Assembly (NCBI GenBank): GCA_010015675.1
Contig: ML976984.1
Location: 1,354,383 to 1,418,382, forward strand
Direction: 5' to 3'
Length of the DNA: 64,000 nucleotides
From: Byssothecium circinans
Lineage: Eukaryota > Ascomycota > Dothideomycetes > Pleosporales > Massarinaceae
This document shows, piece after piece, positions 3,166-61,190 of the stretch (the first letter of the stretch is position 1; every line of letters begins with the position of its first letter). The position numbers were made by a program, and so were the translations under genes. The notes under the pieces are model-generated. The model ran no database searches. It was not told where the DNA came from and worked only from the letters and a program-made list of their open reading frames with translations.

Positions 3166-3316
3166 TTATCCCCCTCTTTAAGATTATTATTCTAATAATT
3201 GTAAAGAACTAGCCGCTATACCGCATTAAGCCTTAGCTAGCGTATAAAGCGCACGAGTTTCTTACCGTAAGTAGTATTATATCTTTCTTAGATATTCCTT
3301 AACCTCTTATCTAACC

Positions 3317-3760
3317 ATGCCTAGGGAATCCCGTCTTCGAGTCCTAAAGGTTCCTCGCATAGATCCTTTATTTGTCTCTGCCAGCTCATCTACTGCTCGT
3401 CGGAAACTGCTCGCTAGTCACGTTCTAGCGAATAATCGCGAGATGCCTTCCCCTTACTTTTTTTGCCGTAAGGAGAGTTAAAAGTGCGTTATAAGTCTAA
3501 ATTCTAGGCGTTGTTTTAAGTGTCTAAATTATAACTTTAAGTGTAACCTAGTCGTAACTCCTCGCAAGTAAGCTAAGCTTAACGCGAAGCAAAATCGCGT
3601 ACGTTAGCGTTTGCTTAAGCTAGAGAAGTCTCTACGTAAGTCGCAGCTAAAGCTTTTATATTTTAATTGTTAAAAAAAGGAGATGTACTATTAAGAGTTA
3701 GCTTTAATAGAAAAGATAGAAGGCTTTAAGCATAAAGCTAAGTTATTAACTACTACTTTT
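3317..3760 (+). pseudogene. A0 antisense ORF with Zn(II)2Cys6-like cluster
   Basis: This frame lies opposite to gag-pol, about 150 bp inside the 3' LTR, and starts with an ATG (MPRESRLRV). It contains a cysteine array that reads, with one RIP change (TAC for TGC) restored, as C-x2-C-x6-C-x8-C-x2-C-x6-C, the spacing of fungal Zn(II)2Cys6 clusters. Visible pieces are FFCRKES, KCVISL and RRCFKCLNYNFKCNL. A Lys/Leu/Glu-rich stretch likely to form a coiled coil follows. The A1 copy at 4722 is the same gene. Two or more TAA/TAG codons interrupt it. The zinc-cluster assignment rests on spacing alone; DNA binding is not shown. Confidence 0.7.
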
Positions 3761-3779
3761 AAAAGTATAGATATTACTA

Positions 3780-4095
3780 TTACACCTTTACCATCGCCAC
3801 CCGTATCATTAATTAACCTAGGCTAGTTGTAGGCTAACTCTTCTTTTTTATTTAATTCTTCCTTATCTTTTAATTTCTCTATTTTTCTAGCAAACGTAGA
3901 TTTGCTACTTTTAGATACTGTTAGTAATAATCCTTTACTAAATCTTTATAGCCTATAAGATTCTATATTAGTTCTTAGGTATTCTAGCTATCTAGCTAGT
4001 TCTTCTATTTAACTAAATACTTCTACTAACGTTTAAACTTTCGCAGGTCTTTAATTTCTTTAACCTCGTAGTTTTTATTTTTAAGTTTGACTTAC
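3780..4095 (-). pseudogene. A0 pol C-terminal end with chromodomain, RIP-decayed
   Basis: Read on the minus strand this is the last part of A0 pol, homologous to 12050-12240 of A1, where the KYLVKWK core of a chromodomain is legible. It is separated from the rest of A0 pol by insertion of A1 at 4095/4096; the pol frame resumes at 18404. A chromodomain at the integrase C-terminus defines the chromovirus branch of Ty3/gypsy and is known to direct integration into heterochromatin. Here it is broken by several stop codons. Confidence 0.68.
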
Positions 4096-4721: not shown

Positions 4722-5070
4722 ATGCCCAGGGAATCCTATCCTTAAGTCCCAAAGGTTCCTCATACGGATCCTCTGTCTGTTCCTGCTAACACGTCCACTA
4801 CTCGTCGAAAACTGCTTACCCATCGCGTTCTGGTGAACGGCCGTGAGATGCCTTCCCCATACTTAGCTTGCTATAAGGAAAGCAGGAAGTGCATCATAAG
4901 CCTAGATTCTGGGCGTTATTTCAAGTGTATAGATTATAACTATAAGTGCAATCTAGTCATGACTCCTCGCGAGTGGGCTAAGCTAGATGCAAAGCATAGC
5001 CACCTTCGCACCTTAATTCTAGAGTCTTAGCTTAAGTTAGAGAAGCTTAATTATTAAGAGAAGGAGATGT
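4722..5070 (+). pseudogene. A1 antisense ORF with Zn(II)2Cys6-like cluster, 5' part
   Basis: The ATG at 4722 gives MPRESYP, as in A0. The cluster occupies 4860-4956: YLAC, KCIISL, RYFKC and NYKCNLV, with Cys 1 and Cys 4 changed to Tyr (TGC to TAC). The implied ancestor is C-x2-C-x6-C-x8-C-x2-C-x6-C. The frame is open from 4833 to 5030, unusually long for this decayed region. It runs into B1 at 5071 and continues at 11809 with the matching ELALIEEVE stretch, so B1 landed inside this ORF. Orientation is opposite to gag-pol and the start faces away from the 3' LTR. A regulatory or DNA-binding role is only an inference from the cysteine spacing. Confidence 0.75.
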
Positions 5071-5533
5071 ATGTTATGATCTAGAAGTGGGGTCGCCACA
5101 CTTATGTAATAACTAGCTGCGCGCCCTAACTAGACAGACGGTCACGAGTAGTAAGCAGAGTTACGTAACCATCCTAGCGTCCTAGGAGTCCTAGAGGTCC
5201 TATGAGGAACTAGGACGAGCGGGACAGATAGGACGAAGGGACGTAACTAGTATATAGATAAACTTAATCTCTACATTATAGGAGTTGTGTTTAACCTTCT
5301 ACTTAGGATTACAATCTATTCAGTATCTTATACTCTATAATTGTAAGCTTACCTAAGTTCACTAAGTGTACGCCCTTTAGATAAATATTACTACGTACTG
5401 TTAGAGTACCACCATGTGTCGTGAATTAATATCTCTTCCTAGAGAACTAACTAAGCTCTAGAACCTTAAGCACTCTTATTACCTAAAAGCTCTTTGAGCT
5501 ATCTCTAGTAATAAGCCCCCCTAGACCTTAACA
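5071..5533 (+). repeat. B1 5' LTR
   Basis: Starts TGTTATGATCTAGAAG and ends CCTAGACCTTAACA. Matches 11347-11808 and the B2 LTRs at 54965 and 61205. Confidence 0.92.
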
Positions 5534-5553
5534 TTTTAAACACCCTTAGAAGG

Positions 5554-6395
5554 ATGTCTAAGACACATGATACCTAATCCCATGGTAACGCTAGTAAGGT
5601 CGCTAAGCCAGATCTCTACCACGGAGATCGCGCTAAACTTAAGGGATAGCTCCTGCAAATTAACTTGTACTTTAAGTTTGCAGCTAGCACCATCAACGAC
5701 GTAGACAAAGCCTCCTTTGTCACGACCTATATGCGTGGCGACGCTAAATGATGGATTAACCCTTATCTCACTAAATACCTAGACAATAATAATGATGACG
5801 ACGAAGTCATGATACTCTTCAAAGACTACGCCTAGTTTAAGACCTGTCTCTAATAGGTCTTTAGAGTCTTAAACGAAGAATCCGTCATAGGAAGGAAGGT
5901 GCAACGCCTTAGGCAACAACGCTTAGCCGCTGAATACACCGTAGAGTTCTAGCACTACGCGATTCAGATGGGCTAGGAAGATAAGGCACTCATGACCATG
6001 TATAGATAAGGCCTTAAGGATACTATTAAAATAGAACTTATGTGATTAGGAGCATCTATTACTACCTTAGAGGAACTATACTAGGAATCCATCAGAATCA
6101 ATGGACAACTATATGAGTTAACGTCCGAGCTACATGATAAACGAAGTAGACTTAGCGTGGGCAAGACTAAGAGTACCTACACTAAACCTAGGTACTTCCC
6201 CGCTATGAAACTATAAAAGTAGTACTTAGACCCCTACGGGCTATAGCTAATGCAGCTTAACAACGTTGAAAAAGGGAAAGGGAGAGGCCACTACCACGAG
6301 AAAGAAGCTAGGACGTACTACTCGTGCGGAAAAACAGGCCACATCGCTAGAAACTGTCGTGCGAAGCTAGGAAGAGCTAAGCATACAGTCTAATA
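5554..6395 (+). pseudogene. B1 gag
   Basis: The ATG at 5554 (MSKTHDT) leads into a Ty3/gypsy-type Gag: KPDLYHGDRAKLKG, INLYFKF, then a helical capsid-like region and a CCHC zinc knuckle at 6316-6357. In the knuckle the first Cys is Tyr (TAC, 6316-6318) while the second Cys, the His and the last Cys (TGT, 6355-6357) remain. The reading register is kept from 5554 to the knuckle without an indel; the protein is broken by TAG, TGA and TAA codons. Gag forms the virus-like particle and the knuckle binds RNA. A TAATAG pair follows the knuckle region, after which the pol-related frame starts. Confidence 0.82.
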
Positions 6396-6399
6396 ATAG

Positions 6400-9300
6400 T
6401 TAAACATGATCATGGCATCCTATGCCTTAGGTTGCCTCCCTAACGTTAAAGAAAATGATAAATGGGAAGTGATTAATTTAGGTGAAGAAAGAGGAGACGC
6501 TATTAGATAGAAGATACAGGAATTATCTATTAGAAAAAGGGTTAGTAAAGCAGCCAATTAGATATAGCATAATAAGGAAGTAGATACTATAGATGATAAA
6601 GTCTAGGACTTCCTTAATAACCCTAACCAACCCCTTAACGCGAGAGAACAACAACTTTAGGATTACTTGCTTAGCGAATAAGCCAAGGATAATAAAGGAC
6701 TATTATGGGCTGATAGAGCTCTTTAAATTATTAGTAGAAAAGAAGAGTACCTTAGAAAAGAAAACTAAGACCCCCATGACTCTGAACTACCCTATACTAA
6801 AATCGCGCAAGGAAACCATCCACGATAGACGGATGAAGACCCAATGTAGTATGACAGCGAAGTTACATTAGATAATAACAAACTAATGGATCAAGGACGC
6901 TTAGGATACAATAAGCCTAGCGTAGGACTTAATGATGAGTGCCTATATGAAGATCCGAACCCCAGGCCTAGGAAGCAACGGAAGCTAAGGCACAGGCAGG
7001 AAAAAGCCTATGAAAGGCAAGCTAACTAGGTGGACTAAGAGCTCATAGAAGGAAGCATCTAATAAGTAGTATAGCAGAATGAAGTAACTAAGGAACTATG
7101 ATATAACATGGACTATTAAAATGGAAACCACGGAAAGCTTAGCTTCACCTAGTGCAATAATGATGGTTGTCTCACCTACTATAATGTGAAGGTAAAAGTA
7201 AACTATTTCCTAACTATTAAAAAAGACTGCAAGTTTAAATAGTATGACTGCTATAATAACAAGTGCCTAACGCACTTATATGATAAATGAGCATGACCAT
7301 GGTTCCCAGGCAAGGAAGATCCCGCAGAATTAATGAAGATGAACCTAATTATCAATAACATCTGCACCTAGAGCAAGTGGCAGACATGTCTACATACTAG
7401 GTGCAAAAGGCACGCCAAAGAAAAAGAGAAGAATAGATTTAGAGCATCTTTTTTAGATCCCTACCTAACACTGCTAAAGGGCTGTATACCCTAGGAGCAG
7501 CAGGCGAACGTCTAATCAAGATCCCAATCTGTCTTAGTGGAAAAAGGATGAAGGCATTAGTAGATTCAGGATTACAAGCAAACTACATCTTAATAGTAGT
7601 GGCGTTCTTAGCTAGACTAAGACTATTACTAAAGAAAGATCCTTATCTACTACATGTAGCAAATGGACAAGCCATGCTAGAGCAACCTAAGATTCAACAC
7701 GAGATTACCTTAGTACTTATGAGGATCTACTACTACAGCGAACGGATTACCTTAGACTGTTTTGAGATGGCCACTTACGACGTCATATTAGGAATCCCTT
7801 AGCTAAAAAAGCATAACCTAGTAATTAACTAGAAGAATGACATGATATCATTAGTAAACTGCGCCTACTAACGCACTTCAAAGCCTACGCATCAGCAGCG
7901 ATCAATGGTAGATAAGAAGGCAATCAATAACATTGCTTTAACAAAGACGCGTTTAGTAAGAACGGTTGACTCTACAGATGCTATTTAGTTAATAGATTAA
8001 TAAGTAAGAGTAAAGGAGAAAAAGGCACCTCTAGAGATCCCTAAAGAGTATAGAGAATAGGAGTACCTCTTTTAGAAAGACGTAGGCGCCACGGCGCTAC
8101 CTAAGCATCAACCCTAGGATTGCGAGATCACGCTATAGGAAGGAAAGCAACTAACTTTTAGACTAATCTATCAACTATTAGAGAAAGAGCTAAAAGCTCT
8201 ATAGGACTACATTGATAAGAGCCTAGTGAAAGGCTACATACGAGAGTCAAAGTCACTAGCAGGATACCCAGTCCTCTTCGCCCTAAAGAAGGACGGATCA
8301 CTGCGACCATGTATAGATTTTTGGAAACTGAACAAGATTACAGTCAAGAATCACTACCTATTACCTAACATTAGAGAACTACAGGATTGACTGGCGCGTG
8401 CGAAGATATTCATGGCCCTTAACCTGCAAGACGGATACCATCTAATCCACATGAAGGAAGGCAAAGAATGGAAGATAGCGTTTAGGATATAGTATAGATA
8501 CTATGAATACACCATGATGCCCTTTGGTCTTACCAACGCCCTGGCGACTTTCCAAGCATTAATTAACAACGTATTGCGTACACACCTAGATATCTTTGTG
8601 ATCACGTACTTAGATAACATACTCATCTATTTAGAAAACGTTGAAGAATATATAGGACATGTTAAGTAAGTGCTTTCGTGCTTGGATGCCGCAGATCTGC
8701 GCCTTAAGCTGGAAAAGTGCGAATTCTACAAGGAAGAACTTGATTTCCTAGGATTCGTAGTCAACACCATAGGGGTCAAGATGAGCCCAAAGAAAATATA
8801 AGTAGTATAAGACTAGCTGATACTAATAATGGTTAAAGGAGTGTAGGAATTCCTCAGATTCTGCAACTTTAATAGGAGGTTTATTAAAGAATACACCTTA
8901 ATAACCTTACCCCTAGTAGGACTTACTAGGAAAGACGTACTCTTTAGATAGTTAGAAGTACAGGAGAAAGCATTTAAAACTCTAAAAGAGAAGTGCATAA
9001 GCCCACTAATACTAGTAGCATTCAGGAGCGGAGAACTAATAAGGATTAAAATAGACGCATCTAATCTCGCACTTAGAGTAATAGTAAGTTAGATAAGAGA
9101 CGGCTAATAGCACCCCATCACCTACTACTTAAGGAAGTTCTTAGGACTAGAAGAACGATACGACGTACACGACAAGGAATTAATAGCTATTATAGACTCA
9201 TTAAAGCACTAGAGAGTTTACGTGGAGAGCTACTCTAAACTTACTATCTTTACTAATCATAAGAACCTACTCTACTTTATGATAACTAAACAACTTAATA

Positions 9301-10790
9301 AAAGACAAGTTAGATGGTCTAAGTTACTAGGGCAGTATAAGTTCAAGATTATGTACACACTAGGCAAGGACAACGGACGAGCCGATGCCCTCAGCCAATG
9401 AAGCGATATCGCAGGAATGAAAGAAACTGTCGAAGCACCAATACTATGAGCTAACAGGGATGGATCCCTAGGACTGGCTCAATAGCTAAATGGCATCCTG
9501 CGAATTAGTAACGAAGTACTAGAGGAGCTATAGGAAGAGATCATACGACAATATCACGATGATCCTGTACACGGACACCCTAGCATTTAAAGAACTATTG
9601 AACTAATTCAAAGAAACTATGAGTTCAAAGGTATAAAAGAAAAGGTTACACGCTTTATTAGCAAGTGCGCAGACTGCCAGAGAAATAAACATAGCACGCA
9701 TGCATCCTACGGAGAAATGTAGCCTATTAAGCTACTAAAAGCACTATGGGAAGACATCTCTATAGACTTTATAACAGGTCTACCTATGTTAAGAGACCTT
9801 ATAACTAAAATAACCTATAACGTCATCTTAGTAATCATCAACAGATTCATGAAATATGTAGAAATGATACTATTCAGAAACGACTATAACGCGGAACAAC
9901 TTAGATACATGATCCTAGATAGACTTATCAGATACCATAGCATACTAAAATCAATTATCAGTAATAGAGACAAGCTCTTCACATCAAACTACTAGAAAAC
10001 GCTGATAGCTGTAATTAGAATGAAACGCAAGCTATCTACAGCATATCATCTATAGATGGATAGACAGACTGAAAGAACAAATTGTACAATAAAGATATAC
10101 CTACGAATCTATAGTAATACCTAGTAGAATAATTAGGTTTCCCTTTTACCTATAGCTTAACTAGCGTATAATAATAAGATATTAGAATCTATAGGACAAA
10201 CGCTATTCTACGCAAACTATGGGAAGCACCTAAATCTCTTTAAACGCACACTACTAGGGGGCAAGGCAGTGGTAGCCTTAATAATAATAGAGGACTTAAA
10301 GAACGTACACTAATTATTATGGGTTAGCCTTAAAACAGCACAACGTAAAAGTATTTCGCACGTAAATACTAAACGAAAAATGGCACCTTAGCTAGAAAAG
10401 GGGGATAGAGTATACCTACTTACGAAGAATCTTCGCATAAAAAGACTAAGCAAGGGACTAGATAACGTTAAAGTCGGACCATTTTTAATATAAGCTAGAA
10501 TAAGCCCTGTCAACTATTAACTCTAGCTACCTAAATAAGCTAAGATATATCTAGTTTTCCACATATCTAGATTAGAACTAGTAGACCCTAAGACGCTAGT
10601 ATAGAAAATATTCTATTATGAAGTTAAGGAAGAAAATAAATTTAAAGTTAAAAGGATCACGGATTAGAGAGATCGCGAAGGAACAAGAGAATACCTAATT
10701 AAGTGGAAAGGTTACCTAGAGAATAAGAGCACATAGGAACTAGCTACATACCTTATAGGTTACAAGTATCTTCTAAACTACTAGCATTGA
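6400..10790 (+). pseudogene. B1 pol (protease, RT, RNase H, integrase, chromodomain)
   Basis: Domains in order. Retroviral-type aspartic protease at 7548-7802 with ALVDSG and YDVILGIP. Reverse transcriptase at about 8200-8800 with the LPNIREL and MPFGLTNA blocks. RNase H at about 9040-9330. Integrase at about 9540-10330, with a CADC zinc-finger half at about 9667 and the MDRQTERTN block. Chromodomain at about 10640-10770 with EYLIKWKGYLENKST. The polymerase motif YxDD reads YLDN (8607-8618), so the second Asp is lost by a G-to-A change. Many CAG/CAA/TGG codons are stops. The element is dead but its order is fully legible and diagnostic of a chromovirus. Confidence 0.88.
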
Positions 10791-10799
10791 CATTCCAGA

Positions 10800-11316
10800 A
10801 AGGCGACCAATCAATGGTAGCGGCACTAAGCGCGGCCTCTAGATTTACTAAAGCAATATCCTGAAGCAGAGCCTCCTACGCTTCTAACGCCTCTAACTCC
10901 TCTATAGATAACACTCCTTTGTCAAACATTTCCTGCTCCTTCTAGTGAAGCAGTTTCTTTTGTTTATGAAGCCTTAAAAGCTTCTCCCTTACTAGACGGG
11001 CGCGCTGTAGAGTGGCCTTAGCAACATCCTCTTCTACACGCAAGTGAGCCTCCTCTTCTTCCTCTAGCACCTCAAGACAACCCATCTCTTTGTCAATTTT
11101 CAAGAAATCTGGCAAAGGTAAACCCGCGGGTTCGCACGAGCTACGCCTAACGCGAGTGCAGTTATTATAACGCTTGTGAAGGGACGATAGTTTGCAAGGA
11201 AGCTAGCAGTTAGCATAGTAGGAACAAGTGACTATGGCAAAGGAACCGCGACTATTGATATGGTTAGCGAGTTGATAGCAGTAATAAACGGAATAAGAGG
11301 GTAGTTATTAACTCAT
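10800..11316 (-). pseudogene. B1 antisense ORF with Zn(II)2Cys6-like cluster
   Basis: On the minus strand the ATG at 11316-11314 lies only about 30 bp from the 3' LTR. The frame reads MS, two stop codons, LPSYSVYYCYQLANHINS, and then a cysteine array: CSYYANC, LPCKLSSLHKRY, NNCTRVRRSSCE. Taking Tyr as mutated Cys at positions 2 and 4 gives C-x2-C-x6-C-x8-C-x2-C-x7-C, inside the Zn(II)2Cys6 consensus. B2 confirms position 4 as Cys but not position 2. A long Glu/Lys/Leu-rich helix follows (EVLEEEEEAHLRVEED, RLVREKLLRLHKQKK). It runs toward the end of pol. It is clearly conserved between B1 and B2; its function is unknown. Confidence 0.75.
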
Positions 11317-11346
11317 GAGGACATTAAGCTCTAAGAGGGGGGATAG

Positions 11347-11808
11347 TGTTATAATCTAGAAGCGGGGTTACTATACTTATGTAATAACTAGCTGCGCGCC
11401 CTAACTAGATAGATGGTCATGAGTAGTAAGTAGAGTCACGTAACTATCCTAGCGTCCTAGGAGTCCTAGAGGTCCCATGAGGAACTAGGATAAGTAGGAC
11501 AGATAGGACGAAGGGACGCAACTAGTATATAGATGAACTTGATCTCTATATTATAGGAGTCATGTTTAACCTTCTACTTAGGATTATAATCTATTTAGTA
11601 TCTCATACTCTATAATTGCAAGCTTACCTAAGTTTACTAAGTGTACGCCCTTTAGACAAACATTACCACGTACTATTAGAGTACTACTATGTATCATGAA
11701 TTAATATCTCTTCCCAGAGAACTAACTAAGCTCTAGAACCTTAAGCACTCTTGTTACCTAAAAGCTCTTTGAGCCATCTCTGGTAACAAGCCCCCCTAGA
11801 CCTTAATA
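11347..11808 (+). repeat. B1 3' LTR
   Basis: Starts TGTTATAATCTAGAAG and ends CCTTAATA, followed by the target duplication ATGTA at 11809-11813. The preceding purine run AGAGGGGGGATAG is the polypurine tract. Confidence 0.92.
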
Positions 11809-11960
11809 ATGTACTATCAAGAGTTAGCTTTAATAGAAGAGGTAGAGAGCCTTAAGCGTAAGGTAGGATCCTTAGCCGCTGCTCCTAAGAGTATAGATGC
11901 TACTATTACGCCCTCACCACTACTACCCGTATTATTGACTGACCTAGGCTAGTTACAGGC
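11809..11960 (+). pseudogene. A1 antisense ORF, continuation after B1
   Basis: The sequence after the B1 target duplication (encoding ELALIEEVESLKRKVGS) continues the ORF broken at 5070. The same stretch is uninterrupted in A0 at about 3680-3760. The Leu/Glu/Lys content suggests a coiled coil, followed by a Pro/Ser-rich end. Beyond about 11960 the plus-strand frame only mirrors the pol chromodomain on the other strand. Confidence 0.68.
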
Positions 11961-12049
11961 TAACTCTTCTTTCTTATTTAATCCTTCCTTATCCTTTAAT
12001 TTTTCTACTTTCCTAGAGAATTTAGGACTACTACCTTTAGACACTATTA

Positions 12050-15000
12050 GTGATAGTCCTTTACTAAATCCTCGCAGCCTATAAGATTCTATATTAGTTC
12101 CTAGGTATTCTAGCTATCTAGCTAGTCCTTCCACTTAACTAAGTACTTCCACTAACGCTTAAATCTCTGTAGGTCCTTAATTTCTTTAACCTCATAATCT
12201 TCGTCCTTAAGCTTAATTCGTGTTTCTAGCTCGGCGTCTGGCGGTGCTAGTTCAAGGAGGGATTTATAAAAAATAGGGTGTATGCGCATGCTCTTAGGGA
12301 GTTCTAGTTTAAACGTGACTAGTCCCTTAACCTCTAGGATCTAAAAGGGTCCTATTTAAAGGTTATCTAGTTTGTCGCATAGCCGTTTAGTTTTTAAATT
12401 TTTTTATAATAGGAAAACTTTATCCCCCTCTTTAAGGGTTAGTCCCTTAAGCCTTTTCTTATTTACTAATCTAGCTGTCGTAAGGTTCTATTAAGTGTTT
12501 CGTTAGCTTAATTTGTCATGCAATTCGCGAAGTAGTCGTGCCTTATCGTTAGCTCTAGCTAAAAGACTCTTAACGTCCTTAGGATTTTGATGAGTAATTA
12601 GCTTATACCTATAGTTCACGTAGTGCGGTGAGTATCCTATTATTAAGGATCTTGTACTATTGTAGGCTAGTTGTGCTATTAGCAGGAGTTTAACCTAGTT
12701 ATCCTATAGCTTATTAGCGTACATCCTTAGATACTATTCTAGTGTCTAGTTTATTTGTTCTATCTAACCATCTATCTATAGATGAAAGCTAGTTAAAAGC
12801 TTCTTATCAACTCTAAGCTTTACTAAGAACGTGCTCTAATACTTAGAGGTGAATAGTATTCTATGATTAGTAATAAACTATTCTAGCATACCATGTTAGC
12901 TAATAAGTGCCTTAGTTACTTTATAAGCTATCTCCTTAGCTATAACCGTTTCTTCCATTAGTACGAATATTAATGCTTTAGTTAATTAGTTGATGATTAC
13001 TAGTATCAAGTTGCATAGCCGTGCTAATCTAGGTTCTAACGATTTTAGGAGCTTTACTATGAAGTCCATCATAACGCTGATTCATAGGCGTGCGGGTAGT
13101 TTAAGTGATTAGAGTAATCTATAGGGCTTATATCTCTTAGGCTTGTTCTTAGAACATGCTAAACAGTTACCTATTACGTTTTAAACTATTTTTTATACAT
13201 TAGGGATCAAGTATTTATTTGAGATCCGTTAAACTATTTTATTAATCCTGGGGTGTCTATATTCCTTAGACTCATGTAGCTTCCATATTAGGGTTAGTGT
13301 AAGGTCTTTGCGTAGTATAATCTATTATTCCTTATCTTAGGGCGGCCTAGCCTTAAGATGGTTGATTAAGTCATATTCTACCCTCTAGTCTAGGGTTAAA
13401 TAATTATAGTCTGTAAAGTTATGTACCTCTAGTCCCTAGTAATTGATCCTAGCTACCTTAGTAAGCTTATCAAGCTTCTTATTTTATAGTCGTGTAACCT
13501 TAGTCACCTTAGCTAGTCATTCAACTAGAGTTCCCTTGAATAGCTATAGTTAATTATAGCCTAGACTACTATCTTTGTCCTTCTATAGGACCACGTTATG
13601 CGTGATAGGTCTATCTGTTTCCCAAAGGTCTAATTATTAGCTAAGAGCATCCGCTGCTCCGTTTAGCGTTCCTAGGTGATAGTGTACCTTAAAGTCGTAG
13701 TCTACCATCATTTTAGCCTATCTAACCTATCATTAGTTAAGTTTCTTAGTCATCATGAAACTTATTAGGTTCTAGTAATCTGAATATACCTCTACCTAGT
13801 ACTTGGCGCCTACTAGCTAGGCTCGCCATTATTTAAAGGCGTCTACTATTGCTAGTAGTTCCTTATCATAAATGTTATAGTTAAGTTCTGCTCCTAAGAA
13901 CTTTTAAGAATAGTAGAATACTAGTCTCTATTTCCCATCATCGCCTTGCTATAAGAGAATCGCTCCTAAGGCATAGTCTAATATATCTATTTCCACTCGC
14001 AGTAGTCATTCCAGGTCATGCATCTATAATATAGGGGCTAACAAGAATAATTCCTTAAGCTTTTTAAAAGCCTTTTGCTATTCCTGTCCCTAATGGAATC
14101 CCTTCTCTTTCTTAGTAATCTCTGTAAGAGGCGCCGTGGTCTTTAAGTATCCCTAAATAAACTTTTAATAGAAGTTCACAAATCCTAAGAAGGATTATAC
14201 GTCCTTAACTATTTTAGGAGTTTTCATGTCCTGTATAGCCTTAACTTTCTTTAGGTCCATGGTAATGCCATCTCGCGAGATGATAAATCCTAAGTAATCC
14301 ATCTCTGTAACGTAGAATTCGCACTTTTCTAGCTATAGAGGTAATTAATACTCCCTAAGCTTCCTAAGCACCTTCTTAACGTGCTTAATGTAATCCTTAA
14401 GCGTCCCTAAGGTGTACACTAGTATATTATCTAGGTACGTAGTCATAAAAACGTCCAAGTATTCATAAAGTACTCTATTAATAAGTGCCTAAAATATCGC
14501 AGGTGCGTTCATTAGTCTAAAGGGCATAACCATGTACTTATATAGTCTATACTAAGTTTTAAAGGCAGTCAGCCATTTAAAGCCCTTAGCTATCTATATT
14601 CAATAGAATCTATCTTATACATCAAATTTCATAATCTACTTGACTCCTTGGAGGTAGTCTATAAGTTCCTAGATTAGAGGAAGAGGGTAATAGTTCTTCC
14701 TTATAACGTGGTTTAGCTGTCTATAATCCATATAGAGCTACAGCTTTCCATTCTTCTTTAGGATAAAGAGAATTAGTGAAGCCATTAAGCTTACACTCTC
14801 TTATATGTATCCTTATTTTAAGTTCTTCTTAATGTACTCTCTTAGTTCTGACTACTAATCTTAAGTAAGCAGATATATTAGTCCTGGGCGCAGCTTCGCG
14901 CCTTCTTCTAGGTAAATCTTATGATCCCATTCCTAGTGATCTAGTAATGCAGTTTCTTCTATTTCTTTAAATAGGTCTCGAAACTCCTCGTATTCCAGTG

Positions 15001-17900
15001 GTATCGTTAGTTAGGGTTCATCCTTCATAGGCGTAACTCTCTATATCTAAATGACTCCTATTTATAAAGGGTCCTTCTCATAGATTCTCTTAATCTTATA
15101 AGGTGATATCTTACTAATCCGTCTAGTCTAACTAGATAAGCTCTAGATTGCTGGGCTCAATCTTTTATAACGTGTTCTAGCAACCTTACGCGCTAGTTCT
15201 TAGCTAAACATCATGCCTTTCTACTAATCTATAGTAGGATTATGCTTCCTAAGCTAATTATATCTAATTAACATGTCTTCTTCACTAAGATCCATGATGT
15301 TAAGGGCTGTCGTGTCCTTAATTCTAAGTACGTGGAATAACACTTCTTAGGTTTCCAACCTTAAGAATCTATTACTATAGGATATTAGTCTATTATTAGC
15401 TAATACTACTCATATTAGACGTTCCTTATCTTAATAGGGTATGTCATATTTCTTAACTACTTATAGGGAGATAATTATCTATGCAGCTCTACTGTCTACT
15501 AGTGCTGTAAGCCTGCGTCTATGTACGTATACCTCTACCTTTAATTAATGAACTAGTGGATCTAGGTGTCGTACATTATATAGGGTCGTTGTAAGAATGC
15601 TCTCACCAGCGTGACCTAGTCCCTAGTAGCATCCTAGTTTTTTAATCCCTAGGGTCCTTCTATAGATCTTCCTACTACCTATTCTTCTAGCAGGTGGATG
15701 TAATAGTCGTCTATATAGCACGCTATCTAAGGTAGGCGAGCATGCTCTACCTCTGCGTTATCTAGTCGTGGGAAACCTTTCCTAAGTTTCTCTAAGAGAT
15801 GTGCTTAACATAAGTTATTAAAGCACTATTTATAGGGTAGGTCATTATAACTTTCCCTATTAATAGCTTTAGGTGGGCGTCTTATAGTCTAAGTATATAA
15901 GATATCATCTCTAGCAGCCCTATCTTCTAGGTGGCCTTATAGCTAGTGTTGCGTTTCTAGCAACGTTCGCCATATCTATTACGTGAGTGCCGTCTTTTAT
16001 CCGAAAGCATCTTCCTTAGTTTTATTAGGAAGTAGCAGGAATTTATACCATTTACATACGTCCGCTAAGCACTTAGAAGGAGGCAATAGCTTATAGTGGG
16101 CTCTATACTAGGTCTATGCTACTTCTTCCTTTAGGAGGAGATAAAACATACATCCTAGGAGGGATAGGTATTCGTTCTAATTAATCTCCTTATGTCCCTT
16201 ATCTAAAGGGTGTCCTATGGGGTAATAGTAGAGACATGCGCTATTCTTATATACTAATATTTCTCTATCTATTCTACTAGCTAGCTAGTATCCTGCAACA
16301 TGCTTACTAAGCTAGTATAGTTAGTAGTGCGTATCGTAGCACCTGCTCTAACCTAGGCGTTCATGCTATTTTTACTAATATTTAAAGTAATGTATGTAGC
16401 AGTTATCTTCCATATAATCTATTAATAGGAGAAGGGCATAAGAGGCTTATCTAGGCGTGTGTCGCACACTTTACCTTTCTTATAGGTAAGTAATATAGTA
16501 CTCCCTTATATAGTTATACTATTTAACTTCATTATGTTTATTATTAATCTTAATTTATTATACTTTTATCTATAGGCCTTACTCCTTCATCACTATTACT
16601 ACTGCTTCGTGGGCATGGCTACCGCGTACCAGCGTGTCATAGGTGCATGTTTCACCTTTATATGTATTATCCCTATACATCTAGTATAGATCTTCTTTAA
16701 GCTATTAAAGGACCTCATAGTTATCTATCTAGTTTAAGGGTTATATTACTTAGGTCGTAATAGATTCTGTGTCACTAACTTCGTTATTAGATGGTTCCGT
16801 AGCCTGATCTGCTTCTAGAGGTAGGCAAGGAGTAGGCTGCTAACGTAGCACCTCTAAGTTATCCTCTTTAGGTCCTATTACCTTAAACTTAATCATCCTA
16901 ATCTTAACCGCTCTAAGCTTGCTTGCTTAGCCTTGGTTCTTTAGGTAGTCCCTGCGGAAGTGTCCTACTTCGCCACATTAGAGACATGCTTTCTTCTTAA
17001 AGCGTTCCTAGCGTTATTCATGGGTTAGGCTATCTAGCTATCTTCCCTTACTCTTATCAAACTACTTCTTTTATTAGACTTTATCTGTTATCACTACATT
17101 ACTATCATGGTCGTAACGTAGTGCCTTCAGCTTTCTATAACGTCTAGAGTTAGGAATAATCATTATATCCTATTGTTTCTTTTGTAGCGCTCATTCGTGG
17201 AGCCTATTATTGATTTAGGTGGCTAGGTCAATCATGTCTTATAGGTCTTCTAGCTTATCATGATGGATTATTCTATCCTTAACGACTTCCTTCAGCCTAT
17301 TATAGAAGGCTGTGCGCAATAGCGCATCATCCTAATTAATCTTTAACTGTAGTTGCTTAAACTCTGTCACATATCTAGTAACTAACCTATCCTGCTAGAT
17401 CTAAGAGATCTTCTACTCTACCTAGGTCTCCTTATCAAGTTCTCTAAACACCTTTTAAATCTCTTCCTTAAACTTCGTCTAGCTCTTAAAGATAGCCTTT
17501 GTATCATCTTTGCAATTCCTCATATCATTCGTGAGGTAGTCATCTATGAAGGGCTGCATCTAGGCAGCTGCCTTATCCTTTAAGTGCATGCTAGCCGCGA
17601 GGATTTTGTCTTCATCATTTATTATGAGGTTGAACTAATAGTATAAATCCATATTAGTAAGAAATGGCTTTAAGCTATCTTATCCTCTATTATACTTCTC
17701 TAGCGCCGTAATCTTTCCCTAAGGAGTAGTATTTCTAGCCTAAAGCTAAGCTATCACTTATATTAGTTCATTAATCTGCATGGCCTATTGCTATAACTAG
17801 TTAGCCTAGGTAGCTATTACTAATACTAGGCTTAAAGTAGGTATGTTAACACTACTACTAGTAGCACGTAGGGTAGCAGGAGCTACTATTACGTACGTTT
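12050..17900 (-). pseudogene. A1 gag-pol, RIP-decayed
   Basis: Minus strand. Gag runs from about 17880 to 16900 and ends in a zinc knuckle near 16939-16995 (ACL-stop-CGEVGHFRRDY; the last Cys is Tyr). A protease-like ALVDSRAA block is at about 15484-15520. Reverse transcriptase covers about 14970-14300, with the catalytic motif YLDN (14426-14437) in place of YLDD. RNase H follows, then integrase with a CLAC finger half near 13175. The C-terminal GPF and RIHPIFYKSLLE blocks lie near 12230-12450, and a chromodomain (KYLVKWK) is at 12060-12200. The gag-pol linker is longer than in B1 and contains no domain I recognise. Numerous TAG/TAA codons interrupt all domains. Confidence 0.85.
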
Positions 17901-17928
17901 AGGTTCTTAAACCTATAGGTAGTTAAAG

Positions 17929-18403
17929 TGTTACTAAGGGGTATACTAGCCTTACCTAATCTAGGTAAGGGGAGGAAGGTTAGTGTATAGTATATACGTT
18001 AGGTAGTATTCTTTAGTAATTTAAGAGGTAAACGTATGAAGTAAACTAATTCTATAATAAACTATAGAATAACTAAGTATTAATCTAGGTAAGAGATAAA
18101 CTATTAAGAGTTAACTATAAAGAATCAGAATTAGAAAGATAAAGGAAATCTGTTCAACCTTTATACTACTTATTCTGTTCCTTCGCTCCTATGATCTCTT
18201 GAGATCCTAAGATCACTCCTGATCTCTTAATCTCTTAGGATCCAGAGATCAATCCATGATCTCTGTTCTTAGCGAGATTAATGTCACGTGACCGCTGACC
18301 TAATCCTGCCCTACGCATTACTGTGTTACTATCCTCTGGTCTTAACACCTCCTATGCTGTGTCATTTAGTCTTGGATACCCTGTATCCTTCTTATTCGTA
18401 ACA
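17929..18403 (-). repeat. A1 5' LTR
   Basis: Starts TGTTACTAAGGGG and ends TTCGTAACA (plus strand), followed by the duplication CTTAC at 18404-18408. It is nearly the same sequence as 4096-4570, with transition differences only in the stretch compared. Confidence 0.92.
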
Positions 18404-21400
18404 CTTACGTTTTAATTTTGGCGTCTAGTGGTGCTAGTTTAAGGAGTAATTTATAAAAAATAAAGTATATGCGTATGCTCTTAAAGAGTTTTAGCTTAAA
18501 CGTTACTAGTTCTTTAGCCTTTAAGATTTAAAAAGGTCCTATTTAGAGGTTATCTAGTTTATCGCATAGCCGTTTAGTTTTTAAATTTTTTTATGATAAA
18601 AAAACTTTATCCCCCTTTTCAAGGGTTAGTCCCTTAAGCCTTTTCTTATTTGCTAATCTAGCTGTCGTAAGGTTCCTTTAAGCAATTCATTAGCTTAATT
18701 TATTATGTAACTTGCAAAGTAGTCGTGCCTTATCGTTAGCTCTAGCTAAAAGACTTTTAACGTCCTTAGAATTTTAGTAAGCAGTTAGCTTATATCCGTA
18801 GTTCGCGTAGTGTAGCGAGTATTCTATTATTAAAGATCTTATACTATTATAAGCTAATTATGCTATTAGCAAAAGTTTAACCTAGTTATCTTATAGCTTA
18901 TTAGCGTACATTTTTAGATACTATTCTAGTGTCTAGTTCGTTCATTCCGTCTAACTATCTATCTACGGATAAAAGCTAGTTAAAAGTTTCTTATTAACTT
19001 TAAGCTTTGCTAAAAACGTGCTTTAATACTTAGAGGTAAATAGTATTCTATAGTTAGTAATAAACTATTCTAGCATACCGTATTAACTAACGAGTACCTT
19101 AGTTACTTTGTAAGCTATTTCCTTAGCTATAACTATTTCCTTTATTAGTACGAATATTAATGCTTTAGTTAATTAGCCAACAATTACTAATATTAAGTTG
19201 CATAGCCGTGCTAATCTAGGTTCTAACGATTTTAAGAGCTTTACTATAAAGTCTATCGTAACGTTGATCTATAGGCGTGCGGGTAGTTCTAGCAATTAAA
19301 GTAATCCGTAGGGCTTATGTCTCTTAGGCTTATTTTTAGAACATGCTAAATAGTTACTTATTGCGTTCTAAACTGCTTTTCGTACATTAAGGATTAAGTA
19401 CTCATTCAAGATCTATTAAACTATTTTGTTAATCTTAGAGTGTCCATATTCTTTAGACTTATATAGCTTTCGTATCAAGGTTAGTACGTAAGCTTTTTAT
19501 AATATAATCTATCGTTTTTAGTCTTTAGATAGTCCTACCTTTAGGTAATTTACTAAGTCGTATTCTACCCTTAGCTCTAGAGTTAAATGACTGTAATCCG
19601 CAAAGTCATATACCTTTAGTCCCTAATAATTAATCCTAGCTACCTTAGTTAATTAGGGTTGATTATAGCTTATACTTTTATTATAGTCCTTTCGTAGGAT
19701 CGCGTCGTGCGTAATAGGTCTATCTATTTCCTAAAGGTTAGATCTTTAGCTAAAAGCATCCGCCACTCTATTTAGTAATCCTAGGCGATAGTATACCTTA
19801 AAGTCGTAGTCTACTATTATCTTAGCCTATCTAACCTATCGTTAATTAAGCTTCTTAGTCGTTATAAAACTTATTAGGTTCTAGTAATCTAAATATACTT
19901 CTACCTAGTATTTAGCGCTTACTAGCTAGGCTTGCTATTGTTTAAAGGCATCTACTATTGCTAGTAGTTCCTTGTCGTAAACGTCATAATTAAGTTCTAC
20001 TTTTAAGAACTTTTAAAAGTAGTAGAACACTAGTCTCTACTTCTTATCTTCGCCTTGCTATAAGAGAATCGCTCCTAAGGCGTAGTCTAATGCATTTATT
20101 TCTACTCGTAGTAGTCGTTCTAAGTCGTGCATCTATAGCATAGAGGCTAACAAGAATAATTTCTTAAGCTTTTTAAATGCCTTTTATTGTTCCTATCTCT
20201 AATAGAATCTCTTTTCTTTCTTAGTAATTTCTATAAGAGGCGCTATAGTTTTTAAATATCCTATAATAAACTTCTAGTAGAAGTTAGCGAATTTTAAAAA
20301 AAAAATTATACGTCTTTTACTATCTTAGGTATTAGCTATTTTTTTATAGTTTTAACTTTCTTTAGGTCTATAGCGATGCCGTCTTATAATACAACAAACC
20401 CTAAGTAGTCCGTCTTTGTAATATAGAATTTGCATTTCTCTAACTATAAAAGTAATTAATACTCTTTAAGCTTCCTAATCACCTTCTTAACGTGTTTAAT
20501 ATAATTCTTAAGCGTTCCTAAGGTATACACTAGTATATTATTTAAATACGCAGTTACAAAAACGTCTAAGTATTCGTAAAGTACTCTATTAATAAGCGCC
20601 TAAAACGTTGCAAGCGCGTTTGTTAGTCTAAAGGGCATAACTATATACTCGTATAATCTATAATAAGTTTTAAAGGCAGTTAGCTATTTAAAGCCCTTAG
20701 CTATCCGTATTCGATAGAATCTGTCTCGTATATTAAATTTTATAATCTACTTAACTCCTTAAAGGCGGTCTATAAGTTCCTAGATTAATAGAAGAGGGTA
20801 ACAATTGTTCTTTATTACGTAGTTTAGCTATTTGTAATCTATATAGAGTCGTAGCTTTTTATTCTTCTTTAGGACAAAGAGAATTAGTAAGGCCATTAGG
20901 CTTATACTTTTTTATATATATCCTTGCTTTAAGTTTTTCTTAATGTACTCTCGCAGTTCTAAGTGCTAGTTTAAAGTAAGCAGATATATTAGTCCTAGGT
21001 GTAGCTTCGCGCTTTCTTTTAGGTAAATCTCGTAATCCTAATCCTAGTAATCTAGTAATGCGGTTTCTTTTATTTCTTTAAATAGATCTTAAAACTCTTC
21101 GTATTCTAGTAGTATCGTTAGTTAAGGTTCGTCTTTCGTAGGCGTAACTCTTCGTATTTATATAACTCCTATTTGCGAAGGGTCTTTTTTATAGATCTTT
21201 TTAACCTTATAAGGCGATATCTTACTAATTCGTCTAGTCCAACTAAGTAAGCTTTAGATTGCTAGGCTTAATCTTCTATAGCATGTTCTAGCAACCTTGC
21301 GCGCTAGTTCTTAGCTAAACATTATGCATTTCTACTAATTAATAGTAGGATTGTACTTCTTAAGCTAATTATAACTAATTAATAGTAGGATTGTACTTCT

Positions 21401-24079
21401 TAAGCTAATTATAACTAATTAACATATCTTCTTTACTAAGATCTATAATGTTGAGGGATGTTATGTCTTTAATTTTAAGTACGTAGAATAACACTTTTTA
21501 GGTCTCTAACCTTAAGAATCTGTTGCTGTAGGACATTAGTCTATCGTTAGCTAATACTACTTATATCAAACATTCCTTATTTTAATAGGGTATGTTATAT
21601 TTCTTAACTACTTATAGAGAGATAATTGTCTATATAACTCTACTATCTACTAGTGCTATAAGCCTGCGTCCGTGTACATATACCTTTACCTTTAATTAAT
21701 AAACTAGTAGATCTAGGTATTGTACGTTATATAAAGTTGTTATAGGAGTACTCTTACTAGCGTAACTTTATCCCTAGTAGCATCCTAGTTTTTTAACTTT
21801 CTAGGTTTTATTAGAAACTATCCTAATCCCTATTTATTAGATAGGTGTATTAAATAGCCGTCGTTGTAATACGCTATCTAAGATAGGCATCTATGCTTTA
21901 TCTCTACTTTTTCCTTCCTTAGGAAACCCTTCCTAAGTTTCTTTAAGAGGTGTGTCTAACACATGTCATTAAAGCATTATTTGTAGGGTAGATCATTGTA
22001 ACCTTCTCTTTTAATAGCTCTAGGTAGGTATCTTATAGTCTAAGTACGTAAGATATTATCTCTAGTAGCCCTATCTTCTAGATAGCTTCGTAGCTAGTAT
22101 TGCGTCTCTAGCAACGTTCGCTATATTTATCGTGTAAGTATTGTCTTTTATCTAAAAGCGTCTTTCTTCGTTTCATTAAAAAGAGCTAGGAATTTGTAGC
22201 GTTTACACACATCCGTTAGACACTTAAAAAAAGGTAGTAGCTTATAGTTAACTCTATGCCTAGTCTATGCTACTTCTTCCTTTAAAAAGAGATAGAACAT
22301 GCATCTTAGTAGTAATATATACTAGTTCTAATTAAGCTCCTCGTGTCCCTTATCTAAAGGGTATCCTATAAGGTAATAGTATAAACATGCGTTATTTTTA
22401 TACTTTAGTACTTCTCTATCTATTCTACTAGCTAGCTAGTATCCTACGACGTGCTTACTAAGCTAGTGTAGTTAGCAGTGCGTATTATAGCACCTACTTT
22501 AACTTAAGCGCTCGTGCTACTTCTACTAGTATTTAAAGTAATGTACGTAGTAGTTGTCTTCTATATAGTCCTTCTTTAAGAGAAAGGCGTAAGAAGCTCG
22601 TCTAGGTATATGTCGCACGCTTTTTCTTTCTTACAGGTGAGCGACGTAATGCTCCCTTGTGCAGTTATACTAATTAACTTCGTCGTATTCATTATTAATC
22701 TTAATCTATTATACTTTTATTTATAGACTTTGTTCTTTTATTGCTGCTACTATAGCTTTATAAGCGTGACTGCTGCGCACTAGTGTATCTTAAGTACACG
22801 TTTCACTTTTATATATATTATCTCTATACATCTAGCATAGATTATCTTTAAGCCGTTGAAGGACCTTATAGTTGTCTATCTAGTTTAAAAGGCAAGTTAT
22901 TTAAGTTAAAATGGATTCCGTATTACTAATGCTATTATTAGAGGATTCCGTCGCCTAATCTAGTTCTAAAGGTAGGCAAGGAGTAAGCTACTAACGTAGC
23001 ACTTCTAGTTTACTCTCCTTAAGTCCTGTTACCTTAAACTTAATTATTCTAATCTTGACTACTTTAAGCTTGCTTGCTTAGCCTTAGTTCTTTAGGTAGT
23101 TTCTACGGAAGTATCCTACTTTACTACATTAAAGACATGCTTTCTTCTTAAAGCATTCCTAGCGTTGTTCGTAAGTTAGGCTATTTAGCTATTTTTTTTT
23201 ACTTTTATTAAACTACTTTTTTTATTAAACTTTGTCTATTATTACTACGTCGCCGTCGTAGTTGTATTGTAGTGTTTTTAGCTTTCTATATTATCTAAAG
23301 TTAGGAATAACTATCGTATCTTTTTACTTCTTCTACATTGCTCGTTCGTAAAGCCTATTATTAATTTAGATAGCTAAGTTAATTATGTCTTATAAGTCTT
23401 CTAGCTTCTTATAATAGATTATACTATCCTTAACAGTTTCCTTTAACCTATTGTAGAAGGCTGTGCGCAACAGCGCATTATCTTAATTAATCTTTAACTA
23501 TAGTTGTTTAAACTTCATTACATATCTAGCAACTAACCTATTCTACTAGATCTAAGATATCTTTTGTTCTACTTAGGTCTTTTCGTTAAGTTCTTTAAAC
23601 ACCTTTTAAATCTTATCTTTAAACGTTGTCTAGCTCTTAAAGATAGTCTTTATGTCGTCTTTACAATGCCTTATCTCATTCGTAAGATAGTCGTCTATAA
23701 AGGGTTGCATCTAAGTAGCTGCCTTATCCTTTAAATGCATGCCAGCCGCGAGGATTTTATCTGAATCCTCCGTTAAGGCATTAAATCGATAGTACAAATC
23801 CATGTTAGTAAGGAATAGCTTTAAGCTATCTTATCCTTTATTATACTTTTCTAGCGTTGCAATCTTTCCATGGGGTATAGTGTCCTTGGCCTAGAGTTAA
23901 GCAATTGCTTGCATCAATCTATCGATCTATTTAGCCTATTGCTATAACTAGTTAGCCTAGTTAGCTATTACTAATGCTAGACTTAAAGCAGGTGTACTAA
24001 CACTACTGCTAGCAGCACGTAGGGTAGCAGGAGCTGCTATTACGTACATTCAGGTTCTCGAACCTATAGGTAGTCAAAG
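18404..24079 (-). pseudogene. A0 gag-pol, heavily RIP-decayed
   Basis: Homologous throughout to A1 gag-pol on the same strand. The gag zinc knuckle at about 23085-23150 has lost both its His (to Tyr) and its last Cys (to Tyr). The protease-like block ALVDSR is at about 21630-21660. The reverse transcriptase motif has become YLNN (about 20536-20548), with both catalytic Asp codons mutated. The frame continues across A1 to its chromodomain end at 3780-4095. A local duplication of about 60 bp is visible at 21340-21415 (the CTACTAATTAATAGTAGG segment occurs twice). No domain could be functional. Confidence 0.82.
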
Positions 24080-24566
24080 TATTACCGAGGGGTATACTTG
24101 CTAGTCTTAATCCTTGTTAGAGGAGGTCGGTTAGTATAAGGTGTATACGTTAAGTAGTATGCTTTAATAATTTAAGAAGCAAATGTGCAAAAGTAACTAA
24201 TTCTATAACTAACTATAGAATAACTAAGTATCAATCTAGGTAAGAGATAAACTATTAAGAGTTAACTACGAAGAACTAGAATCTAAAAGATAAAGGAAAT
24301 CTGTCTAGTCTTTATATCATTCGCTTTATTCCTTTGCTCCGTCCTATGAACCCTGATCTCTAGAGATCGCCCTTAAAGGCAAGATTACTCTTACTTCTTC
24401 GTACAAGCCTAATCTCTAGAGATTAGTGTTCTTGGCGAGATTAATGTTACGTAACTGCTAACCTAATCCTGCCTTACGCATCATCGTGTCGCTATCCTCT
24501 AGTCTTAATACCCTCCGCGCTACATTATCTAGTCCTAGATACCCTATATCTATTCTATTTGTAACA
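24080..24566 (-). repeat. A0 5' LTR
   Basis: Starts TATTACCGAGGGG (TG changed to TA) and ends TTTGTAACA. It carries the same subtype-specific stretch as 2679-3165 and is followed by CAAGG, the partner of CAAAG at 2674-2678. Confidence 0.88.
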
Positions 24567-46645: not shown

Positions 46646-46647
46646 TA

Positions 46648-58400: not shown

Positions 58401-60690
58401 TACGAATATACTATAATGCCCTTTAGTCTTACTAACACCTTAGTGACTTTTTAAGCATTAATCAACAACGTGTTGCGAACACACCTAGATATCTTTGTAA
58501 TTGCATACTTAGATAACATATTTATCTATTTAAAAAACGTTAAAGAACATGTGAAACATGTTAAGCAAGTACTTTCATGCTTAGATGCCGCGAACCTACG
58601 CCTCAAGCTAGAAAAGTGTAAATTCTATAAAAAGGAACTTAATTTCCTAGAATTTGTAGTTAACACCACGGGAGTTAAGATAAGCCTAAAGAAAATACAG
58701 GTAGTACAAGACTAGCTAATACTAACAACAGTTAAAAGAGTGTAAGAATTTCTTAGATTCTATAACTTTAATAGAAGGTTTATTAAGGAATACGCTTTAA
58801 TAATACTACCCCTAGTAGAACTTACTAGGAAAGACGTACACTTTACATAGACAAAAAAATAAGAGAAGGTATTTAGAACTTTAAAAGAAAAATGCATAAG
58901 CCTACTAGTACTAGTAGTATTTAGAAGTAAAGAACTAATAAAAATTAAAATAAACGCATCTAACCTTGCACTTAGAGCGGTAGCTAGCTAAATAAGAGAT
59001 AGCTAATAGCACCCTATCGCCTACTACTTAAGAAAGTTCTTTAGGCTAGAAGAACGTTACGACGTACACGACAAGGAATTAATAGCGATTGTAGATTTAC
59101 TAAAATATTAAAGGGTCTACGTAGAAAGTTGCTTAAAACTTATTATCTTTATTAACTACAAAAACCTACTCTACTTTATGACAACGAAACAGCTTAACAG
59201 AAGACAAGTTAGGTAGTCTAAGTTGCTTAGATAATACAAGTTCAAGATCGTGTACACACTAGGAAAAGACAACGAAAGGGCCGATGCTCTCAGCCAACGA
59301 AGTAATATTGTAGGAACGAAGGAAACTATCAAAGCACTAATATTGCGAGCTAATAAGGACGGATCCCTAGGACTAGCTTAACAATTAAATGGCATCCTGT
59401 AAATCAACAATAAAGTACTAGAGGAACTATAGGAAGAAATTATACGACAACATTACAATAATCCTATACACGGACACTTTAGCATTTAAAGGACTATTAA
59501 ACTAATTCAAAGAAACTATAAGTTTAGAGATATAAAAGAAAGAGTTACACGCTTTATTAGCAAGTACGTGGACTGCAAAAGAAACAAGCACAGCACACAC
59601 GCATCCTATAGAGAAATGCAACCTATTAAGTTACTAAAAGAACTATAGGAAGACATTTCTATAGACTTTGTAATAGGTCTACTAGCATTAAAAGACCTTA
59701 TAACTAGAATAACCTACAATACTATCTTAGTAATCGTTGATAGATTTACGAAATACGTAGAAATAATACCGTTCAGAAACAACTACAATGCGGAATAACT
59801 TAGATACGTAATCTTGGACTAACTTATTAGGTACCATAGCATGCTAAAGTTAATTATTAGTAATAGAGATAAGCTCTTTACATCAAACTACTAGAAAACG
59901 CTAATAGCTGTAATTAAAATAAAATGTAAGCTATCTATAGTATACTATCCATAGACGGATGGACAGACTAAAAGAATGAACCGTACGATAAAGATATATC
60001 TACGGATTTACAGCAATACCTAGTAGAATAATTAGGTTTCCCTTCTACCTATAGCTTAGCTAGCGTATAATAATAATATATTAGAGTTAATAGGACAGAT
60101 ACTATTCTACGCAAACTATAGGAAACACCTAAATCTCTTTAAACGCACACTGCTAAGAGGTAAAGCAGCGGCGGCTTTAATAATAATAGAGGACTTGAAG
60201 AACGTACACTAATAGTTACAGGTTAGCTTTAAGACAGCACAACGCAAGAGTATTTTATATGCAAACACAAAACAAAAAATAGCACCTTAGCTAGAGAGGG
60301 GGGATAGAGTATACCTACTTACAAAAAATCTTCGCATAAAACGACTAAGCAAGAGACTAGATAATGTTAAGGTCGGACTATTTTTAATACAAGCTAGAAC
60401 GAGCCCTATTAACTACTAACTCTAGCTACTTAAAAAAGCTAAGATATATCTAGTGTTCTACATATCTAGACTAGAACTAATAGACCTTAAGACGCTATTA
60501 TAGAAAACATTCCATTACAAAGTTAAGAAAGAAAACGAGTTTGAAGTTGAGAAAATTACAGACTAGAGAGACCGCAAAGATAGAAGAGAATACCTAATTA
60601 AATAGAAAGGTTACCTAGAGAACGAGAACACGTAAGAACTAGTTATATACCTTACGAGTTATAAGTATCTTTTAAAGCACTAGCATTGAT
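55435..60690 (+). pseudogene. B2 gag-pol, RIP-decayed
   Basis: Gag from about 55435. The zinc knuckle at 56200-56241 keeps the first two Cys (CYLCGKVGHIARN) but its last Cys is Tyr (TAT, 56239-56241), the converse of B1. Protease near 57450-57720 (ALVDSR, YDVILGI). Reverse transcriptase near 58080-58720; the motif reads YLDN (58506-58517) in a local frame that is open from 58470 to 58715. RNase H, integrase (CKRNK block near 59575) and a chromodomain near 60550-60680 follow in order. Many stop codons. It is dead and aligned base for base with B1. Confidence 0.85.
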
Positions 60691-60699
60691 ATTCTAAAA

Positions 60700-61190
60700 A
60701 GGCGACTAATTAACGGTAGCGGCACTAAGCGCGGCCTTTAGATTTACTAAAGCAATATCCTAAAGTAGAGCCTCTTGCGCTTCTAACGCTTCTAACTCTT
60801 TTATAGATGATATTCTTTTATTTATGAAGCTTTGAGAGCTTCTCCTTTACTAGATAGGCGCGCTGTAGAGCAGCCTTAGCAACATCCTCCTCTATACGCA
60901 GACGAGCCTTTTCTTTCTTTTTTAGCGCCTTGAGACGACCTATCTCCTTATCGATTTTCGAGAAATCTAGTAAAGGTAAACCCGTAGGTTTATAAGAACT
61001 ACGCCTAGCACGAGTACAGTTATTGCAATGCTTATGTAGGGATGATAGCTTGCAAGGAAGCTAGTAGTTAACGTAATAGAAACAAGCGACTATAGCAAAG
61101 AAACCACGACTATTAATATAGTTAGCGAGTTAATAGCAGTAATAAATAGAATAAAAAGATAGTTATTAACTTATAAGAATATTAAGCTCT
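60700..61190 (-). pseudogene. B2 antisense ORF with Zn(II)2Cys6-like cluster
   Basis: The minus frame is homologous to the B1 antisense ORF: CFYYVNY, LPCKLSSLHKHCNNCTRA, RRSSY, then KIDKEIGRLKALKKKEKAR and a charged helix. Here the fourth and fifth cluster Cys are present (HCNNC) and the sixth is Tyr; in B1 the fourth is Tyr and the sixth is Cys. Together the two copies support five of the six cluster cysteines. Confidence 0.72.

Follow-up and report, generated by a model that had tools for sequence, protein, structure and literature searches.

Several retrotransposons carry an additional gene in antisense orientation between pol and the 3' long terminal repeat (LTR). In the Boty-like elements of Botrytis, the available excerpts of the literature place the antisense gene brtn at this position (Zhao et al. 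2011, Virology 417:248, as cited in PMC8365987 and PMC7264820), and brtn is further mentioned in PMC4227169 and PMC5987419. Plant elements contain similarly placed antisense open reading frames (ORFs), termed aORF-3R, whose function is called unknown in the excerpts of PMC7264820 and PMC11963269. Here we analyzed a 64,000-nucleotide stretch of the Byssothecium circinans genome (hereafter the window), which contains a Ty3 chromovirus, element B, with an ORF antisense to pol. The ORF is located between pol and the 3' LTR, the position that defines aORF-3R. A reading made from the sequence only knew of no description of this arrangement, but brtn was published in 2011. The antisense arrangement is therefore not new; within the literature searched, in which no publication on the zinc-cluster identity of such an antisense gene was found, our additions are its interpretation as a zinc cluster, a signal of selection and the distribution of the gene.

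The antisense frame of element B and its relatives

Element B copy 1 (5072..11808, plus strand) was delimited by its LTR match and target duplication. The LTRs match over 5072-5531 and 11347-11806 with 91% identity; because the 5-bp target duplication lies at 5067-5071 and 11809-11813, the LTR ends were set at 5533 and 11808. The antisense ORF (10753..11316, minus strand) comprises 187 codons plus a stop in the register of the single uninterrupted genomic copy, with its ATG at 11314-11316 and its stop codon at 10753-10755. The sequence-only reading had given the upper end exactly, whereas its lower limit, 10800, fell 47 bp short. Its estimate of about 30 bp between the ATG and the 3' LTR agrees with the 30 bp measured up to position 11347, a distance that includes a polypurine tract (11333..11346, plus strand), named by position and composition. 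At the other end, the ORF overlaps by 68 bp, tail to tail, with the C-terminal end of pol (10668..10820, plus strand; stop codon at 10818-10820), which has three internal stops in copy 1. On a 22-residue piece of pol in the window copy, the chromodomain profile PF00385 scored 22.9 bits (E 7.9e-5) against a cut-off of 25.1, and the corresponding stretch of a different copy gave 55.9 bits (E 4.1e-15). Judging from these matches, pol of family B ends in a chromodomain, the distinguishing feature of chromoviruses.

DNA of the ORF is present at 22 places of the 48.4-Mb genome, and the ends of each match enclose 99% or more of the query; this counts places bearing ORF DNA and not all B elements. All 22 were aligned and translated unedited. 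Element copies in this genome show changes of the repeat-induced point mutation (RIP) type: when one copy is compared with the remaining 21 over the ORF, 1684 of 2151 differences are C>T or G>A. Only one copy is uninterrupted, encoding 187 residues with the array C-x2-C-x6-C-x8-C-x2-C-x7-C, while the others have between 2 and 12 stop codons each in its register. RIP damage affects both copies in the window. In copy 1 there are five premature stops, and four of the six cysteines remain. The decayed ORF of copy 2 (60652..61174, minus strand, lower end approximate) has lost its start (ATA at the equivalent codon, 61172-61174, minus strand) and has a 41-bp deletion, a frame shift and, in the register of the uninterrupted copy, eight stop codons, and it also retains four of the six cysteines. 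The statement that both B copies keep the ORF is only partly correct. The cysteine array itself had been read correctly through this damage: across the six positions and 22 copies, all 132 codons encode either Cys (83) or Tyr (49), and a C-to-T change on the other strand turns Cys into Tyr. Premature stops occur in 12 columns, each of which shows Gln or Trp in at least one other copy; none of these columns is a stop throughout. Stop columns in the other five frames number 128, of which 109 have such a source and 19 do not, and ten are stops in every copy; taken alone, this contrast is small.

Selection was evaluated on transversions, because RIP does not make them. Ten transversion columns were found among the copies, six synonymous and four not, against an expected non-synonymous share of 83.5% (p=0.0023, an optimistic value given the relatedness of the copies and the presence of two of these columns in a single codon). 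In control frames, synonymous transversions numbered 1 and 2 of 10 (other antisense frames) and 2, 4 and 2 of 10 (sense frames).

Three protein searches (E<=0.001) returned 14, 42 and 39 proteins, or 65 distinct identifiers, the latter two having scored only the approximately 8000 candidates sharing most words. The best E value among relatives, from a single-sequence search, was 2.1e-72. Named matches are proteins of Ilyonectria, Fusarium and Camillea, and most others are metagenomic; the UniRef names of the Fusarium proteins P0056 and P0062 begin with "Zn(2)-C6 fungal-". Alignment A2 has 36 rows, one from this genome and 35 relatives with 28-69% identity, and omits seven shorter fragments among the 42 hits as well as the finds of the third search. 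Of its 34 rows covering all six cysteine columns, 32 keep all six. A looser six-cysteine pattern is found in 50 of the 65 relatives, 43 with spacings x2, x6, x8-10, x2 and x6-7 and seven with a longer second gap; the other 15, several of which are fragments, do not have it. Two relatives, P0036 and P0041, lie on long contigs (157 kb and 375 kb) and could be element or host genes either way.

The tails of P0010 and P0029 extend past the usual end of the protein, and in a six-frame scan of the window their best match was the antisense of the end of pol in copy 1; the next-best place was copy 2, tied for P0029 with an unrelated spot. We therefore consider it probable that pol and the antisense gene converge in the same way in the sources of these two proteins. 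The same scan gave no best match to the antisense pol end for the tails of P0045, P0013 and P0018.

The relatives and the synonymous bias bear out the proposal of a coding ORF antisense to gag-pol, and on this comparative evidence the family B antisense frame is a conserved protein-coding frame. That it arose by chance in RIP-shaped DNA would fit the broken frame in the window, but relatives at an E value of 2.1e-72 that keep the six cysteines refute this explanation, whose probability we consider negligible, and it was rejected. It could also be that the antisense transcript matters and not the protein: paired with genomic RNA as double-stranded RNA, it would limit the element through silencing, with the ORF as a by-product. 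Such a role has been considered for plant antisense ORFs (excerpt of PMC7264820), but protein-level conservation to distant relatives and the synonymous bias make it improbable as the full explanation here, although both roles may coexist.

A predicted zinc cluster followed by a long helix

The Zn2Cys6 domain (PF00172) has the spacing C-x2-C-x6-C-x5-12-C-x2-C-x6-8-C, which the array of the antisense ORF (codons 31-61; 11134..11226, minus strand) satisfies. PF00172 was the commonest Pfam match, found in 19 of the 36 aligned members at E<=10, with a best E value of 0.0044. In a profile comparison with hhalign against 20 zinc-cluster domains of the same genome, the probability was 88% with the six cysteines in register, compared with a maximum of 19.5% in 20 column-shuffled controls. 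The AlphaFold2 model of the relative P0001 has a predicted local distance difference test score (pLDDT) of 86 and a predicted template modelling score of 0.48, with block means of pLDDT of 94-98 for residues 71-130. The predicted layout consists of an N-terminal helix, the cysteine cluster, a short proline-containing linker and a long coiled-coil-like helix with acidic and basic parts. On the shared numbering, this helix corresponds to codons 72-132 (10921..11103, minus strand), in keeping with the charged coiled-coil-like tail expected from the sequence-only reading. Within it, the alignment rows delimit a conserved basic stretch (codons 105-126; 10939..11004, minus strand) with Lys or Arg in 81-100% of rows at 12 of 22 positions, which may act as a nuclear localization-like signal or bind nucleic acid. 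Foldseek gave six rows, the first three being Put3, Pho7 and Leu3; among the 15 VIA rows, 12 are Zn2Cys6 factors, eight of them aligned over 36-41 residues at a root-mean-square deviation of 1.9-2.7. The structural matches of the cluster are thus Gal4-type Zn2Cys6 factors, but weak ones, and the predicted architecture resembles that of Gal4-type DNA-binding domains joined to a dimerization coil.

Several results weigh against this assignment. PF00172 did not match the uninterrupted ORF. Among ten relatives, it scored between 10.5 and 12.8 bits in four, against a cut-off of 21, and did not match the other six. A few unrelated families reached lower E values in one to three members, such as FAM176 (0.00032) and BUD31 (0.00085). 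The Zn2Cys6 identity initially proposed is partly supported: the spacing fits, and the profile comparison and predicted fold tend to favour it, but every PF00172 score seen is below the cut-off. We regard membership of the antisense protein in the Zn2Cys6 family as probable, not proven.

A different reading of the same conserved accessory protein is that its cysteine cluster is structural or RNA-binding. The protein would then serve as a nucleic-acid chaperone, form part of the particle or act together with Gag or integrase, and would not be a DNA-binding regulator. The sub-threshold PF00172 scores would fit such a role, as would the finding that basic residues are most strongly conserved along the long helix, outside the cluster. 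However, the structural matches of the cluster, though weak, are DNA-binding domains of the Zn2Cys6 type, and its six cysteines are in register with the host zinc-cluster profile. We consider this reading serious but clearly secondary, with about one chance in four.

Our preferred reading, held with somewhat better than even confidence, is that the ORF is a retrotransposon accessory gene of the brtn-like aORF class. The most likely role of its protein would be to regulate the element by binding DNA as a dimer in the nucleus. The sequence-only reading had likewise suggested a regulator owned by the element, one that may bind the LTR or heterochromatin and be expressed in antisense from the LTR. 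The antisense transcript would start in the 3' LTR (11347..11808 in copy 1, plus strand), its presumed source and promoter. The protein would enter the nucleus via its basic stretch, dimerize, and bind element DNA, whether in the LTR, as cDNA or in the integration complex, and could thereby tune sense transcription or integration. This mode would be somewhat like that of HBZ of human T-cell leukemia virus type 1 (HTLV-1), a nuclear protein from an antisense gene.

A second element family with an antisense frame

Element B copy 1 is nested inside the antisense ORF of another element, which belongs to a second, minus-oriented chromovirus-like family. The diverged, zinc-cluster-like frame of this family (4746..5027, plus strand, 94 residues) directly precedes the 5' LTR of element B and is split by the B insertion, with further stop-free pieces, read separately, beyond the nested element (11809..12135, plus strand). 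Its similarity to P0058 (E 2e-4) and P0056 (E 3e-4) is weak. Six other copies of the family were considered: three have a readable frame, in which five of the array cysteines are kept and the second is replaced by Tyr, and the other three do not. PF00172 scored 11.3 bits on one piece of the second family and did not match the window piece. The pol of this family lies in pieces on the minus strand beyond element B, with a Tf2-1 SH3 match of 21.2 bits for a cut-off of 30. For the DNA of the antisense frame, 40 of 112 candidates were scored, and at least 27 genomic matches are 425 bases long or longer. As far as these sequences indicate, the two element families of the window show a similar antisense arrangement.

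The window contains other traces of this family. Another remnant of its antisense ORF is found in pieces at 3275-3955 (plus strand), and the region 12000-24400 may comprise two minus-oriented elements of the family, perhaps in tandem with a common LTR at 17931-18230, the repeat spacing being about 6.15 kb. Separately, a 300-base direct repeat (95% identical; 1226-1525 and 46646-46945, about 45 kb apart) flanks the GC-rich part.

At least 131 zinc-cluster matches were counted in the host genome, which offers many possible sources for a captured fragment of a host transcription factor carried as an unused passenger. Conservation largely excludes this origin: the protein is conserved in many relatives, two element families have it similarly placed and its substitutions show a synonymous bias, so that we consider it very unlikely. 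A broader proposal, which we put forward only tentatively, is that ascomycete chromoviruses carry old, diversified antisense-encoded Gal4-like zinc-cluster regulators, represented here by two families. These would be element-owned transcription factors, a fungal counterpart of HBZ, and a source or offshoot of part of the host Zn2Cys6 family.

Comparison with known systems

Gal4, Put3, Leu3 and Pho7, all PF00172 proteins, have in common with the ORF the cysteine spacing, the predicted cluster shape, the linker and the dimerization helix. The ORF differs from the fungal Zn2Cys6 factors by its sub-cut-off scores, by its antisense position in a retroelement and by its length, since 187 residues leave no space for the middle regulatory domain. 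If our reading is true, mobile elements use a type of transcription factor typical of their fungal hosts. The zinc-cluster-plus-coil layout turns the question of function into a direct test of zinc binding and of binding to the element's own LTR.

HBZ is a basic leucine zipper protein and has a coil. Both HBZ and the ORF are antisense genes of retroelements, but HBZ has no zinc cluster and the likeness is one of analogy, not homology. According to the available excerpts, HBZ is nuclear (PMC11963269) and the HTLV antisense promoter lies in the 3' LTR (PMC7264820). Among the plant aORF-3R, namely Grande gene23, RIRE2 and Retand TRP28, the Grande protein is nuclear and TRP28 is predicted to bind DNA (excerpts of PMC7264820 and PMC11963269). 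They differ by their plant elements and other protein domains, and these excerpts mention no cysteine cluster.

Among the closest known systems is brtn of the Boty-like (BcGypsy1) elements of Botrytis cinerea. According to the available excerpts, these are Ty3 elements with a chromodomain from an ascomycete, in which an additional gene lies in antisense between pol and the 3' LTR. In Monilinia, an 802-nt transcript resembles truncated Pol as well as BRTN, its strand not being stated in the excerpts (PMC5987419), and suggests that regions like brtn are transcribed. The excerpts of the citing literature mention no zinc cluster for brtn, whereas the family B ORF has a zinc-cluster-like array, and the name BRTN is absent from the match tables of the relatives in the three protein searches. 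The likeness of the two genes is one of placement. If BRTN is homologous, the family B ORF would be a plain member of the brtn gene family.
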